Shown one piece after another: positions 1 to 5,722 of a DNA stretch of 64,000 nt; positions within the stretch are counted from its first letter, which is position 1; the number at the start of each line of letters is the position of its first letter. A program made the translations under genes and the position numbers. This DNA is from a bacterium (GTDB lineage Bacteria > Pseudomonadota > Gammaproteobacteria > Burkholderiales > Thiobacillaceae). Location of the stretch: contig WOUQ01000005.1 in the NCBI GenBank assembly GCA_009772925.1, positions 186,001 to 250,000 of the forward strand, read 5' to 3'. The notes below the pieces were generated by a model. The model had not been told where the DNA came from. It was given only the letters and a program-made list of their open reading frames with translations, and ran no database searches.

Positions 1-717
1 CAGGGCCGAGGTGAGCCGCTCGTCGTGCAGGTCCAGGTAGTAGTCGCCCACCTGCTTGGCCAGCAGCATGCCCTTGTAGACCAGAGTGCGGGAAGACAGC
101 GAGGGCAGATAGAAGTGGTCCTTGTCGGCCAGTTTCATGCGCCCGACCTCCAGTTCCACCCGTCGGCGGATGACGAACAGCTTGCGCTCGAAGCTGTCCT
201 GGTCGACGCTGGAGTGGTGACCCGGATCCTCGCCCCGGCCGATGAACACCATGCGCACCGCGGGTTCCTCGGCCTTCGCCGCTTCCGCCAGGCCGGCATT
301 GTCGCGGGGCACGTCGCGCCAGCCCAGAAAGCGCTGGCCTTCCTCGTAAACGATGCGGGCCACGGCGGATTCACAGGCCAGGCGGCCGTTGGCGGACTGC
401 GGCAGGAAGACCATGCCGCAGGCATAGTCGCCGGCGGCGGGCAGGGTCATGCCCAGCTTCGCGGTCTCCTCCCGCAGGAAGGCGTCGGGAATCTGGATGA
501 GGATGCCGGCGCCGTCGCCCAGCAGCGGGTCGTAGCCGGTGGCGCCGCGATGGGTCAGGTTCTCCAGGATGCGCAGACCTTGCCGGACGATGTCGTGGCT
601 TTTCTTGTTCTTGATGTGGGCGACGAAACCGACGCCGCAGGCGTCGTGTTCCAGTGACGGGTCGTACAGGCCCTGCCGGCCGGGAGGGCCTCCCACGGGG
701 GTGTCGCAGTGGTTCAC
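1..717 (-). CDS. gltB: Glutamate synthase large subunit, N-terminal fragment
   Basis: The 239 codons present encode the N-terminal glutaminase (Ntn-amidotransferase) domain of NADPH-type glutamate synthase, which releases ammonia from glutamine for transfer to 2-oxoglutarate. The rest of the gene lies beyond the left edge. The motif EHDACGVGF contains the nucleophile Cys27, which in this family becomes the N-terminus after a short propeptide is removed. The block GLRILENLTHRGATG and the later LFVIRRRVE stretch are typical of GltB. I chose GTG at 717 because a GAGGA sequence lies 7-8 bases upstream. An upstream in-frame GTG at 747 lacks such a site. A terminator at 797-822 separates the gene from the hvf operon behind it. 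Identification is secure; the start is less so. Confidence 0.93.
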   Translation of the reverse strand, partial: MNHCDTPVGGPPGRQGLYDPSLEHDACGVGFVAHIKNKKSHDIVRQGLRILENLTHRGATGYDPLLGDGAGILIQIPDAFLREETAKLGMTLPAAGDYACGMVFLPQSANGRLACESAVARIVYEEGQRFLGWRDVPRDNAGLAEAAKAEEPAVRMVFIGRGEDPGHHSSVDQDSFERKLFVIRRRVELEVGRMKLADKDHFYLPSLSSRTLVYKGMLLAKQVGDYYLDLHDERLTSAL

Positions 718-796
718 GCTTGCATCCTCAAAGTCTGGTCGGTTCACCGGCTGGCCGGATCATTGGGTCAAACAGGGCCGGGGTTTCGGCACGGCC

Positions 797-822
797 AAAA
801 AAAGCCGGTGCACGCACCGGCT
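797..822 (-). terminator. Rho-independent terminator after hvfC
   Basis: A perfect 9-bp stem (803-811 with 814-822) has a two-base loop. On the minus strand it is followed by seven T residues (797-803). It ends transcription of the hvfABC operon before gltB. Confidence 0.8.
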
Positions 823-937
823 GCTGTCGGTTCCAGGGGCGAGGGACAATGTTCCAGGCCCCAATAACGGGCTTGGAATTCTAGCGTGTCAGGGCTACAT
901 AGCCAACTTCCCGGCCATGCACCAAGGTGGAGCGCGT

Positions 938-1687
938 TCAGCACCGGCGGCCGAGGATGGCGCCCTGCTCACGCATTTCCGCCAACAGCGCGGCACCATG
1001 CGCCTGCAAGGCCCCTTCGGCCAAGGCCATTTCAGTCTCCAGCCGGGACACGGCCTGCGCGCCAGTGAGATCCGGCTCTTCCCGCAACAGCCCCAGCAGG
1101 CGGGCGGTGGCCGGATTGACGAGGATGAAGCGGACTTCGTGTTCCGCATCGCGGAAGGCGACAGTGAAGGTCGGCTGTTCGGGCGGTTCGTCCGGCCGGT
1201 AGCGGGGTGACAGGCGATGCACCGGCCAGCGGTAGGCCAGCACTCGCAACACCGGGTTCAGCAGGGGCTGACCGCACATGAGGTCGCCGGCCGCATCGTA
1301 TGCCGGCATTTCCGCGTCCCGGCTGGAGGTGTCCAGTTCCAGTTCCACCCATTCGTAATGCGCCAGTTCAGGCAGGAAGGCCGGATAGTCGGGCACGGGC
1401 ACCCATTCCTCCTGCAGGTATTTCAGGAACTCCTCGGGGATCTGGCGGAAATAGGGAGTATGGCTGGCGTGGTCGCGGAAAAAGGCGCGCACGAGACGGC
1501 CCCAGCGGCGCTTGCCCAGGATCTTGCGGCAGACCGGGAAGCAGGAGAACAGGAAGCCTTCCAGGTTGTTGTAGAGCAGTTCGTTGTAGACCTTCATGCG
1601 CCGCGCCGGGACACCCTTGGGCCGGGCGACGCCGCGGGGATCGCGGATGTGGGCGGTGAAGGCGCGCTGGTAGTACTGGAATTCCAT
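938..1687 (-). CDS. hvfC: HvfC/BufC-type peptide-modification partner protein (DUF2063)
   Basis: This 249-residue protein has the DUF2063 architecture. It starts with a helical N-terminal domain (about residues 1-100) carrying the pattern RRMKVYNELLYNNLEGFL followed by FPVCRKILG, and has a separate C-terminal domain (about 110-245). In characterised copper-peptide (bufferin/HvfA) systems, the DUF2063 partner works with an MNIO-family iron enzyme to present the precursor peptide. It lies five bases after the MNIO gene and is the last gene of the three-gene operon, followed by a terminator. There is no DoxX-like fourth gene as found in some hvf operons. The family assignment is firm; the role here is inferred from homologous systems. 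Confidence 0.88.
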   Translation of the reverse strand: MEFQYYQRAFTAHIRDPRGVARPKGVPARRMKVYNELLYNNLEGFLFSCFPVCRKILGKRRWGRLVRAFFRDHASHTPYFRQIPEEFLKYLQEEWVPVPDYPAFLPELAHYEWVELELDTSSRDAEMPAYDAAGDLMCGQPLLNPVLRVLAYRWPVHRLSPRYRPDEPPEQPTFTVAFRDAEHEVRFILVNPATARLLGLLREEPDLTGAQAVSRLETEMALAEGALQAHGAALLAEMREQGAILGRRC

Positions 1688-1692
1688 ATTCG

Positions 1693-2541
1693 TCAGGCGG
1701 CCCGGACGGAACGCGGGCTATGCACAGCCTGAAGCCGGGCGATGTGTTCCACCTCGGGTAGCAGTTCCGCCAGGGGCGGGATATTGAAGTCCCGCTCCAG
1801 GCAGGTGGGGTGCGTGCCCAGCAACTCGTAGGCGGTGTCCAGCAATTGCCAGACCGGGTCGATCACCTCGGCGCCGTGCGTGTCGATGATGAGGTCCGGC
1901 GCTTCCTGGTAATGCCCGGCCATGTGCATGTAGACGATGCGTTCGGCGGGCATGCGCTTCAGGTATTCGACCGGGTCGAACCCGAAGTTGACGCTGTTGA
2001 CGTAGACGTTGTTGACGTCCAAGTGCAGCCAGCAGTCCGCCTCCTCCAGCACCGCGTTGACGAAGGCGGGCTCGTCCATTTCGTTGATGGGCGCGGCCAC
2101 GTAGTAGCTGGCGTTCTCGATGGCGATGCGCTGTTCCAGGATGTCCTGCACCCGGCGGATGCGGCCTGCCACGTATTGCACCGCCTCCCAGGTAGCGGGA
2201 ATGGGCATGAGGTCGTAGAGATGGCCGTGATCCGAGCAGTAGGAGAGATGCTCGGTGTAGAGCGGCATGCGGTACTCGGCCATGAAGGCCTTGGTCTTGC
2301 ACAGCAGGACTTCATCCAGCGGCGTCATGCCGCCCAGGGACAGGGACAGGCCGTGGCAGACAAAGGTATGCCGTTCCGTGAACTGGCGCAGATCGCGGGC
2401 GTGACGGCCGCCCATGTCGATCCAGTTCTCCGGCGCCAGCTCGAAGAAATCGATGGCGGGTGGGACCCCGGATTTCAGAGCGGGAATGAGGTCGCGCCGA
2501 AATCCGAGCCCCGCGCCATTCAGACGCGGGATGTCAGGCAT
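1693..2541 (-). CDS. hvfB: MNIO-family (DUF692) multinuclear iron oxidative enzyme, HvfB/BufB-like
   Basis: A 282-residue TIM-barrel protein of the DUF692/MNIO family. These enzymes use two or three iron ions to modify cysteine residues of ribosomal peptides, forming oxazolone/thioamide pairs or related heterocycles. Expected metal ligands are visible along the chain: Glu38 in APENW, His63 in CHGLSLSLGG, Glu97/His98 in TEHLSY, Glu142 in IENAS, Asp175 in LDVNNVYVNS, His206 and His210 in HMAGH, Asp220/His222 in DTHG, and Glu249 in LERDFNIP. The gene starts six bases after the stop of the cysteine-repeat precursor hvfA and is followed five bases later by hvfC, so all three are co-transcribed. 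Substrate and product are inferred from the EGKCG precursor next door. Confidence 0.93.
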   Translation of the reverse strand: MPDIPRLNGAGLGFRRDLIPALKSGVPPAIDFFELAPENWIDMGGRHARDLRQFTERHTFVCHGLSLSLGGMTPLDEVLLCKTKAFMAEYRMPLYTEHLSYCSDHGHLYDLMPIPATWEAVQYVAGRIRRVQDILEQRIAIENASYYVAAPINEMDEPAFVNAVLEEADCWLHLDVNNVYVNSVNFGFDPVEYLKRMPAERIVYMHMAGHYQEAPDLIIDTHGAEVIDPVWQLLDTAYELLGTHPTCLERDFNIPPLAELLPEVEHIARLQAVHSPRSVRAA

Positions 2542-2547
2542 GGCCGC

Positions 2548-2937
2548 TTACTTCTTGCCGCCGCACTTGCCCTCGCCGCACTTGCCCTCCTTGAGGTTCT
2601 TGGCGCCGCACTTGCCTTCACCGCACTTGCCTTCCTTCATCATCTTCTTGTTGGCAGCTTCGTCGTCGGTGCTTTTCTTGCCACCGCACTTGCCTTCCTT
2701 GGCCTTGTCGCCGCCGCACTTGCCTTCCTTGGCCTTGGCGCCACCACACTTGCCTTCCTTGGCCTTGGCGCCGCACTTGCCCTCCTTGGCCTTGTCGGCC
2801 TCGGCCACCATGTAGCCCTTGTCCAGGACCTGAGCAGAGAAGGGATTTTCGGCGGCGGAAACCGGCGCCGCGGACAAACCCAGAGTGACGGCGGAACCCA
2901 GAGCCAGGGTCAGGGCGGTACGTTGGTTGGTCTTCAT
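2548..2937 (-). CDS. hvfA: HvfA-like secreted precursor peptide with eight EGKCG motifs
   Basis: A 129-residue protein with a Sec signal peptide (about residues 1-28, cleavage after APVSA), a short conserved ENPFSAQ segment, and a lysine/glycine-rich C-terminal half holding eight copies of EGKCG. These carry eight cysteines and there are no others. Motifs 1-4 recur every 10-11 residues. Motifs 5-6 and 7-8 are back-to-back pairs (KEGKCGEGKCG). In the Haemophilus HvfA system this motif is the site where the MNIO enzyme installs copper-binding oxazolone/thioamide groups. The start at 2937 has an AGAGGAG ribosome binding site six bases upstream; longer in-frame extensions lack one. The product is probably an exported copper-chelating peptide, inferred from the motif and the operon. 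Confidence 0.9.
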   Translation of the reverse strand: MKTNQRTALTLALGSAVTLGLSAAPVSAAENPFSAQVLDKGYMVAEADKAKEGKCGAKAKEGKCGGAKAKEGKCGGDKAKEGKCGGKKSTDDEAANKKMMKEGKCGEGKCGAKNLKEGKCGEGKCGGKK

Positions 2938-3113
2938 GACAGACTCCTCTACAAAGATGCGTTCGTGAAAGTTATGGATGCCTGTGCGGCCTGCGATCCG
3001 TATCGGTGAAACATGAACCGTGCCGTGGGCGATGCGGACTGTAGGAGTGGAAACAACCGGCCGCAAGCAAATTTTTGTTTATAAATTAATAAGATACGCA
3101 TATCCGCTGGGTC

Positions 3114-3141
3114 CTTGATTATGGCGCGGAAAGGTCCATAT
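3114..3141 (+). promoter_or_regulatory. Sigma-32-like heat-shock promoter for the hsp20 gene
   Basis: CTTGATT (3114-3120), 13 bases, then GTCCATAT (3134-3141) resembles the sigma-32 consensus CTTGAAA - spacer - CCCCATNT. It lies about 55-80 bases before the start of a small heat-shock gene. A 7-bp hairpin (3149-3155 with 3159-3165) would sit at the very 5' end of the transcript. Confidence 0.6.
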
Positions 3142-3194
3142 TGAGGGTGAGAGAAGAGTTCTCTCGGGGTTGTCTGGAAAGAAAGGAGGTTCAC

Positions 3195-3629
3195 ATGACA
3201 AACGTCGTCAGGCGCGAACCGAACGCCATCAACACCATGCTGGATGAGCTCTTCAAGGGCTTCCTGGTACGGCCGCTGGGTGATTTCGCGGGCATGCCGG
3301 AAATGCAGATGATCAAGATGGACTTGAAGGAAGGCGAGCGTGAATACACCGTGCACGCCGAACTGCCCGGGGTGAACAAGGAGGACATCCACGTCAGCAT
3401 CGAGGGCAACACGGTGTCCATCGAGGGTGAAGTGAAGAAGACCAGCGAGGAAAAGGAAGGGGACAAGGTGCTGCGCAGCGAACGCTACCACGGCAAGGTT
3501 TCCCGCAGCTTCACGCTGGGCCAGGAGGTGGACGAGGGCGGCGCCAAGGCCCGCTTCGAGAAAGGGGTGCTGGAACTCGTGCTGCCGAAGAAAACGCCGG
3601 CAGCGACGAAAAAACTCACCATTGAATAA
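3195..3629 (+). CDS. Hsp20/alpha-crystallin family small heat-shock protein
   Basis: A 144-residue ATP-independent holdase chaperone. The alpha-crystallin domain spans about residues 45-140, with ELPGVNKEDIHVSIEGN, the SERYHGKVSRSFTL segment and the FEKGVLELVLPK strand. A C-terminal KLTIE offers the I/L-x-I motif used in oligomer assembly. The N-terminal arm (residues 1-40) is short. I chose ATG 3195 for its strong AAGGAGG site six bases upstream, over an in-frame GTG-type start further 5'. Transcription probably comes from the sigma-32-like promoter at 3114-3141 and ends at the terminator at 3648-3670. The gene stands alone between the divergent hvf operon and argB. Confidence 0.93.
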   Translation: MTNVVRREPNAINTMLDELFKGFLVRPLGDFAGMPEMQMIKMDLKEGEREYTVHAELPGVNKEDIHVSIEGNTVSIEGEVKKTSEEKEGDKVLRSERYHGKVSRSFTLGQEVDEGGAKARFEKGVLELVLPKKTPAATKKLTIE

Positions 3630-4598
<969 letters not shown>

Positions 4599-5651
4599 TC
4601 AGTCGGCCGGCGCGGCGCGATCCAGCCAGGCTTCGATCTCCACGCCCGTGGCTTCGCCCAGGCGGGCGTGCAGATCGATGAATTCAGCGCACTGGGCGGA
4701 CCAGCGCGCCTGGCCGGCAGCCGCCACGGCGCCCAGCGTATCGGCGTTTCCGCTTTTCGCCCAGCGCCGATAGGCCGGCGCCAGTTCCGGAAACAGCTTG
4801 CGGCGCATGCCGACGAAGTTGGCGAAGAAGAAATGCAGCGCCGCCGGGTCGTCCCGTTCGAGCAGCCCCGGCAGGGTGGACAGGCAATCGGCGTAGAGGT
4901 CGCGCACCGCGCGGACCACGATCTCGGCGCGGGAACGCATGACGGCCGCCAGCAGCGCGGCCCAGGGTTCGCCCAGCAACGCTCCCACCCGAGCCTCGCC
5001 CAGCTCGTGCAGGATGACCGATTCGGTCTCGGTGCGGGTCATCGCCTCCAGGGCCGCCGCCTCGTCGCGTTCGAAACCGTGGCAGGCCACCGCCCGGCCC
5101 ATGGCTTCGTTGCGCCTGTTCCAGCGCCATTCCTCGTATTTCTCCCACAACCAGCGCTTGAGCGACTCGGTGCGCACGAAAATGCTGTGGTCCAGCATCA
5201 TGCCCGGCGGCGCGTCCAGATCGCGGGCGAATTCGCAGCCCGCCACGAAGATCTGGAAACCCTGCCGGGTCTCCTGCCGCTCCAGGTTGGCGAGGAAGAA
5301 ATGCGGCTTGCAGGAGCGGCCGAAGCCGCCCGAATAGACCAGGCCGTGGGGCGCCAGACGGCGGTTGGCGGCTTCCACCTCGAACGGATCGACATGGGCT
5401 TCCGCCAGCGGGAGCGCCTCGAAAGCGGCGGCTTCCACCGTTTCCCACAGCCGTTCGCGCTCGTTCATCCAGTCGCCCACTTCGCTTTTCGGCATGTCCC
5501 GGGTGAGGGGAATGTCATGCTCCCAGCGATACAGCTCGCGCATCTTCAGGAGGAAGGTGCACAGGGTCAGATCGCCAGCGTACTGGGCATCGGAGATGTG
5601 GCAGTTTTTCTGGACGGCGCTGACAATGGCGCCCACGTTGAGCTCGTTCAT
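4599..5651 (-). CDS. Conserved protein of unknown function (possibly Sfum_1244 family)
   Basis: A 350-residue soluble protein without signal peptide or membrane segments. The N-terminus (MNELNVGAIVSAVQKNCHISDAQYAGD) and the WEHDIPLTRD segment recall a conserved family in sulfur-metabolising and other proteobacteria that I know as Sfum_1244; I cannot verify this by alignment. Cys25 and Cys39 near the N-terminus, and GGFGRSCKPHFF near residue 120, are candidate functional residues. ATG 5651 is chosen because GGGGGA precedes it; a TTG at 5675 is also in frame. No catalytic motif is recognisable. It sits between convergent argB and the divergent EVE-domain gene. Confidence 0.75.
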   Translation of the reverse strand: MNELNVGAIVSAVQKNCHISDAQYAGDLTLCTFLLKMRELYRWEHDIPLTRDMPKSEVGDWMNERERLWETVEAAAFEALPLAEAHVDPFEVEAANRRLAPHGLVYSGGFGRSCKPHFFLANLERQETRQGFQIFVAGCEFARDLDAPPGMMLDHSIFVRTESLKRWLWEKYEEWRWNRRNEAMGRAVACHGFERDEAAALEAMTRTETESVILHELGEARVGALLGEPWAALLAAVMRSRAEIVVRAVRDLYADCLSTLPGLLERDDPAALHFFFANFVGMRRKLFPELAPAYRRWAKSGNADTLGAVAAAGQARWSAQCAEFIDLHARLGEATGVEIEAWLDRAAPAD

Positions 5652-5722
5652 GGCAATCCCCCATTGAATAGCCAAGTGATTTTGTCGGATTATGCGCCGA
5701 CGTCCATTGCCAAGGAACCTGC

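Follow-up and report, generated by a model that had tools for sequence, protein, structure and literature searches.

A compact hvfABC-type operon with an eight-motif EGKCG precursor in a Thiobacillus-like bacterium

A three-gene operon encoding an EGKCG precursor, an MNIO (DUF692) enzyme and a DUF2063 partner is present in the window, the whole 64,000-nucleotide stretch of DNA that was analysed (Table 1). It is very likely that this is an HvfABC/captophorin operon, in which up to eight 5-thiooxazoles would be formed per peptide and the exported product would sequester Cu(I). The observation is real and the family assignment is correct; the kind of operon is known and its motif count is ordinary, and the window would add a further captophorin operon, from a Thiobacillus-like host, to those described. 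A literature search for Thiobacillus together with DUF692 found no paper, though one may still exist in print. In the portions of the literature available to us, we found no description of the hsp20 and sigma factor context, of the difference in site layout between the window and its nearest relative, or of the orphan precursors found at this locus.

Results and Discussion

The operon and its neighbours

The three genes lie on the minus strand, with only 6 bases between hvfA and hvfB and 5 bases between hvfB and hvfC, which confirms the minimal precursor-MNIO-DUF2063 operon of the preliminary description. Family searches of the host genome found a single MNIO, one precursor and one HvfC, all within this operon. 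Next on that strand, on the 3' side of hvfC, comes a partial gene for a class-II glutamine amidotransferase (gltB by eye), while on the 5' side of hvfA the opposite strand carries the divergent hsp20, which confirms the heat-shock gene noted earlier, followed by an amino-acid kinase gene (argB by eye). No copper gene or regulator was found among the neighbours examined (gltB-like, hsp20, argB-like and the DUF6866 gene), a point against the copper reading. The fourth, DoxX-type gene that had been recorded as lacking is indeed absent, in that none adjoins the operon and the sole PF07681 match in the host genome is on another contig (C22), but this is no novelty, as a precursor-MNIO-DUF2063 operon without DoxX is already published for fontiphorin (PMC12668002). 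The terminator-like sites in the region scanned numbered 4, against 2.8 expected from shuffled sequence.

Table 1. Positions of the operon, its neighbours and the orphan precursors
Feature	Sequence	Positions	Strand	Remarks
hvfA-type RiPP precursor gene	window	2548..2937	-	129 aa; NF050137 match
hvfB-type MNIO (DUF692) maturase gene	window	1693..2541	-	282 aa; NF003818 and PF05114
hvfC-type partner gene (DUF2063 plus NGO1945_C)	window	938..1687	-	249 aa; NF050145
hsp20	window	3195..3629	+	divergent from hvfA; Hsp20 family match
Terminator-like stem-loop then T run	window	803..822	-	3' of hvfC, ahead of next gene; weak
Promoter-like element for hvfA, by eye	window	3038..3066	-	TTGCGG, 17 bases, TACAGT
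DUF6866 gene (both domains)	window	4599-5675		convergent with argB
Orphan eight-Cys peptide	L153 (G006)	2871-3281		beside argB
Orphan eight-Cys peptide	L154 (G019)	3194-3598		hsp20 between orphan and argB
Orphan eight-Cys peptide	L162 (G016)	625-1026		beside argB
Orphan EGKCG precursor	L036 (G008)	4985-5572		beside hsp20-argB
Orphan EGKCG precursor	L037 (G009)	570-965		beside hsp20-argB

Family membership and conserved residues

The MNIO scored 414.4 bits against the NCBIfam HvfB model NF003818 (cut-off 360) and the DUF2063 protein 292.5 bits against the HvfC model NF050145 (cut-off 142), with Pfam placing PF09836 and PF22106 on the latter. By sequence, the nearest solved structures are the MNIO 3bww for HvfB (1.7e-75) and the partner protein 3dee for HvfC (6e-15), both of which are named as members of MNIO-partner clusters (PMC12668002). 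The precursor had no Pfam match but passed the NCBIfam HvfA family model NF050137 (37.5 bits, cut-off 19.5); since it fell below the cut-off of the Haemophilus HvfA equivalog NF050188 (42.8 bits, cut-off 95), it is assigned at the family level only. Two other MNIO systems fit less well, the window enzyme scoring 251.8 bits against the NF050167 cut-off of 310 for bufferin Buf1 (a DUF2282 precursor with BufB) and 38 bits against the TIGR04159 (MbnB) cut-off of 325 for methanobactin. Among the best 80 of 171 matches, most of the named HvfB relatives belong to Thiobacillus, Hydrogenophilales and other Betaproteobacteria, so that the DNA probably comes from a Thiobacillus-like betaproteobacterium.

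Residue conservation was counted on 97 distinct HvfB sequences, window included, of which 95-97 were aligned at each position. Nine residues, H63, H98, E142, H173, D175, H206, H210, H222 and E249, were conserved in at least 96/97 and are presumed metal ligands. Also constant, or almost so, were R15 (96/96), R16 (95/96), D251 (97/97) and F252 (93 F and 4 Y). These four correspond, by position and the local motif ERDF (251/252) rather than by alignment to FonB, to Arg15, Arg16, Asp249 and Phe250, the substrate-selecting and catalytic positions described for FonB (PMC12668002). With all three proteins above curated NCBIfam cut-offs, a chance resemblance can be set aside. The family models, Pfam domains, structures and residues give good support to the HvfABC-type copper-peptide class to which the operon had been assigned.

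Among the closest known systems is the captophorin cluster fonABC of Fontimonas thermophila, which has the same minimal precursor-MNIO-DUF2063 operon and whose product fontiphorin is reported to have seven modified EGKCG-type sites against the eight motifs of the window, when the two are set side by side by description; the Arg15/Arg16 and Asp/Phe positions of FonB also match those of the window HvfB (PMC12668002). The oxazolin operon hvfABC of Haemophilus influenzae has the exported EGKCG precursor in common (PMC13419390), and its HvfB and HvfC families are those whose cut-offs the window proteins pass. It differs in that Haemophilus HvfA is described as three AEGKCGEGKCG units, whereas the precursor of the window scores too low for the HvfA equivalog, and in having the DoxX-like HvfX that the window operon lacks (PMC13419390). 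The Microbulbifer operon mmrABC, from a different taxon, is reported to have a core of EGKCG type that contains five to eight cysteines, a range that takes in the window (PMC12538549).

Precursor layout and predicted chemistry

In the precursor the EGKCG motif occurs exactly eight times and accounts for all eight cysteines, and the motif starts are 9, 10, 10, 21, 5, 10 and 5 residues apart, so that four isolated motifs are followed by two abutting pairs. Translation and motif positions thus agree with the preliminary description, both in the eight motifs holding all mature cysteines and in the four spaced motifs followed by two tandem pairs. By eye, the N-terminus resembles a signal peptide, with a basic start, a hydrophobic stretch and a VSA-A cleavage-like site, and is followed by an NPFxxxxLxxGYM segment. 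This NPF...GY leader segment had the same length of 13 residues in 89/90 precursors, which is weak support because the precursor search pattern favoured that motif.

By analogy with the characterised relatives, we propose that the precursor would be synthesised in the cytoplasm and bound by HvfC (RRE/DUF2063 partner), which would present it to HvfB; that HvfC recognises the NPFxxxxLxxGYM segment is a guess. HvfB, as a mixed-valent di-iron MNIO, would then remove four hydrogens per EGKCG cysteine and close the Lys-Cys unit into a 5-thiooxazole, up to eight times per peptide. The modified peptide would be exported to the periplasm via Sec, where its thiols may sequester copper(I) and thereby buffer copper stress. 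Copper binding is reported for the characterised EGKCG products (PMC12668002; also PMC13419390).

The modification expected here differs from the oxazolone/thioamide ligands of the preliminary description, a chemistry that we reject in view of published structural revisions, which give oxazolin, fontiphorin and gonophorin a 5-thiooxazole instead (PMC12668002; PMC13419390). The older structure was the original assignment for oxazolin (PMC13419390) and survives in the names of the NCBIfam precursor models, but alkylation-assisted NMR and UV are reported to exclude it for all three products (PMC12668002), and of the two groups that made the revision, the adoption by the Haemophilus group is documented in PMC13419390. 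With the window HvfB also reaching only 38 bits against MbnB (cut-off 325), it is extremely unlikely that the modification is oxazolone/thioamide.

It is a guess that the isolated motifs are fully modified. In vitro, FonBC is reported to modify a two-repeat substrate and to leave a one-repeat substrate unmodified (PMC12668002), and therefore the four isolated motifs of the window may be modified less well.

Motif number and site layout among relatives

Of 113 loci examined, 108 had HvfB, and removal of 11 duplicates left 97 distinct loci. In seven of these no precursor was found by pattern and they were left out (L075, L101, L108, L112, L113, L125 and L136), although L113 and L125 do have a precursor-like frame that the pattern missed. 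The resulting sample comprised 90 precursors, that of the window among them, each encoded immediately ahead of a different hvfB gene, and is biased to near relatives, being drawn from the best 80 of 171 matches to HvfB and from genomes picked by kinship. Within it, the EGKCG count per precursor ranged from 0 to 12, with eight or more in 13/90, eight or more mature cysteines occurred in 19/90, and at least one isolated xxKCG motif was present in 45/90. These counts lead us to reject eight motifs as unusual; the arrangement that had been called richer than the minimal number needed falls within the usual variation of the family. Elsewhere in the family, five to eight EGKCG cysteines are described for Microbulbifer precursors (PMC12538549) and 58 cysteines for one published member (PMC12452194).

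The window's clade of 12 operons (support 87/81, and 99/91 for a ten-row subset nested in it, in a tree of 96 rows) had a median of 8.5 motifs against 2 in the other 78 precursors. A rank test on motif number is not independent evidence here, because the clade is one lineage. Two types of central block were each found in 5/90 precursors, the DEAANKKMMKEGKCG type, which includes that of the window, and the KAEQGKTxxEK type.

The nearest relative, L062 of genome G020 (VGVT01000013.1), has the gene order gltB-hvfCBA / hsp20-argB, as in the window, and is 97% identical in HvfB, 93% in HvfC and 96-97% in Hsp20. Its precursor also has eight sites (7 EGKCG and 1 DGKCG), but these form four abutting pairs with a different central spacer. 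The two operons therefore constitute a natural experiment, in which near-identical HvfB enzymes face eight sites laid out as isolated motifs plus pairs in one case and as pairs only in the other, and this contrast directly tests the non-modification of a single EGKCG reported in vitro (PMC12668002).

As a separate observation, a simple pattern found EF-hand-like calcium-binding loops in 20/90 HvfA-type precursors, including L059, L073, L077, L103, L109 and L128. In L059, L077 and L103 the KCG motifs flank the loop on both sides, unlike the EF-hand fusions that have been described as C-terminal (PMC12452194).

Orphan precursors

Precursors were also found in genomes with no detectable enzymes. 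NF050137 matches occurred in 27/61 genomes searched, and four of these 27 had no MNIO match (G008, G009, G013 and G023); G006, whose orphan precursor was found by pattern, is a fifth. None of the five had an MNIO or HvfC family match, and an HvfB search at E<=10 found nothing in them, whereas the control genomes G016 and G019 gave matches at 1e-121 or better, located elsewhere than their own orphans. The draft assemblies are 96% (G006), 99% (G008), 84% (G009), 58% (G013) and 99% (G023) complete. In three of the five the orphan is at the argB locus: it adjoins hsp20-argB in G008 and G009, and argB in G006, where hsp20 gave no match.

The orphans of G006, G016 and G019 are mutually similar, with pairwise dN/dS of about 0.12-0.23, which speaks for a maintained function. 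No second maturation enzyme was found beside them. The convergent gene next to the orphan encodes a nuoN-like Proton_antipo_M protein in G016 and G019; on the corresponding side of the G006 orphan, no conserved neighbour was identified. These three peptides share xxKCGGMxxKEGSCGGAK-like repeats and an NPF leader, with no adjacent HvfBC. The G008 and G009 orphans retain a version of the central block seen in the window (ANKKMMEEGKCGEGKCG in G008).

Such orphans raise the possibility that the EGKCG peptide is largely an unmodified Cys-rich periplasmic metal binder, of which HvfBC modifies only a part such as the abutting pairs. The five enzyme-less genomes, and the eight cysteines retained under the above dN/dS by the argB-locus orphans, favour this reading. 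Against this, the five genomes are drafts of 58-99% completeness, the HvfB encoded elsewhere in G016 and G019 could act in trans, and both enzyme genes are intact in the window operon. Furthermore, only 67/2583 complete genomes with Buf_EGKCG are reported to lack an MNIO (PMC12452194), so that the MNIO-less phenomenon is known but rare. On balance we find it very unlikely that the window peptide is of this kind. A broader proposal, in which the peptide is kept at the argB (usually hsp20) locus even without the enzymes as a functional Cys-rich metal binder, MNIO modification is an upgrade gained or lost, and the window's isolated motifs stay unmodified while its pairs are modified, is also unlikely. 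Whether EGKCG peptides work unmodified could be tested in the relatives that have no detectable MNIO.

Gene neighbourhood and regulation

In the 66 named loci whose upstream sequence was long enough, a divergent hsp20 was found at most 2.5 kb from hvfB in 24 (at most 1.2 kb in 9), argB in 33 and both genes in 23, and in the window's clade hsp20 stands back to back with hvfA in 9/12 operons. The pair hsp20-argB also occurs in G003, G035 and G025, where 8-11 kb of sequence contained no precursor-like frame (G017 was left out of this comparison because its contig ends beside hsp20), and some hvfABC operons have no hsp20 match in a 10-kb stretch. This means that the neighbourhood recurs, but Hsp20 as a functional partner is not supported. 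A 9-cysteine frame in G003 was considered as a precursor and dropped as a spurious arginine-rich frame.

A single ECF sigma protein from Thiobacillus was used to search the 83 operons whose upstream sequence was long enough. In 36 of them a co-directional match lies at most 2.5 kb upstream of hvfB, and 18 of the remaining 47 have one in another part of the locus or in the opposite direction. Pfam confirmed one of the upstream ECF sigma proteins and found zf-HC2 in 2/3 candidate anti-sigma proteins. No match was found in any of the 12 operons of the window's clade, and the sigma homologues of the host genome are only 28-29% identical.

These sigma genes bear on the proposal that the main role of the matured peptide would be not to buffer copper but to counter oxidative or thiol stress, as from hypochlorite or reactive sulfur. 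The homologous Haemophilus operon, encoding a DoxX-like protein, a periplasmic protein, a UPF0276/COG3220 protein and a DUF2063 protein, has been studied under a hypochlorite-responsive sigma factor, its genes being measured in hypochlorite-treated cells of the wild type and of an rpoE2 mutant (PMC7907618), and therefore copper need not be the trigger. The upstream ECF sigma genes in 36/83 related operons point the same way, but the window operon has none, the characterised EGKCG products are reported to bind copper (PMC12668002) and bufferins to improve growth under copper stress (PMC12452194). We consider a mainly stress-related role somewhat unlikely, and prefer exported Cu(I) sequestration.

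In the Thiobacillus locus L086, an ECF sigma gene (4754-5326) and a candidate zf-HC2 anti-sigma gene (5326-5580) lie directly ahead of hvfA, a pair with no counterpart in the window's clade. For the promoter comparison, 12 hvfA-hsp20 intergenic regions were aligned from loci with <600 bases between the genes. By eye, eight of the 12 show CTTGC and, 17-18 bases further along, a TA(C/G)A(G/T)T hexamer, which the other four lack, and the corresponding promoter-like element of the window was not reported by a consensus scan. The hsp20 side of the same intergenic region, again by eye, resembles a heat-shock sigma promoter.
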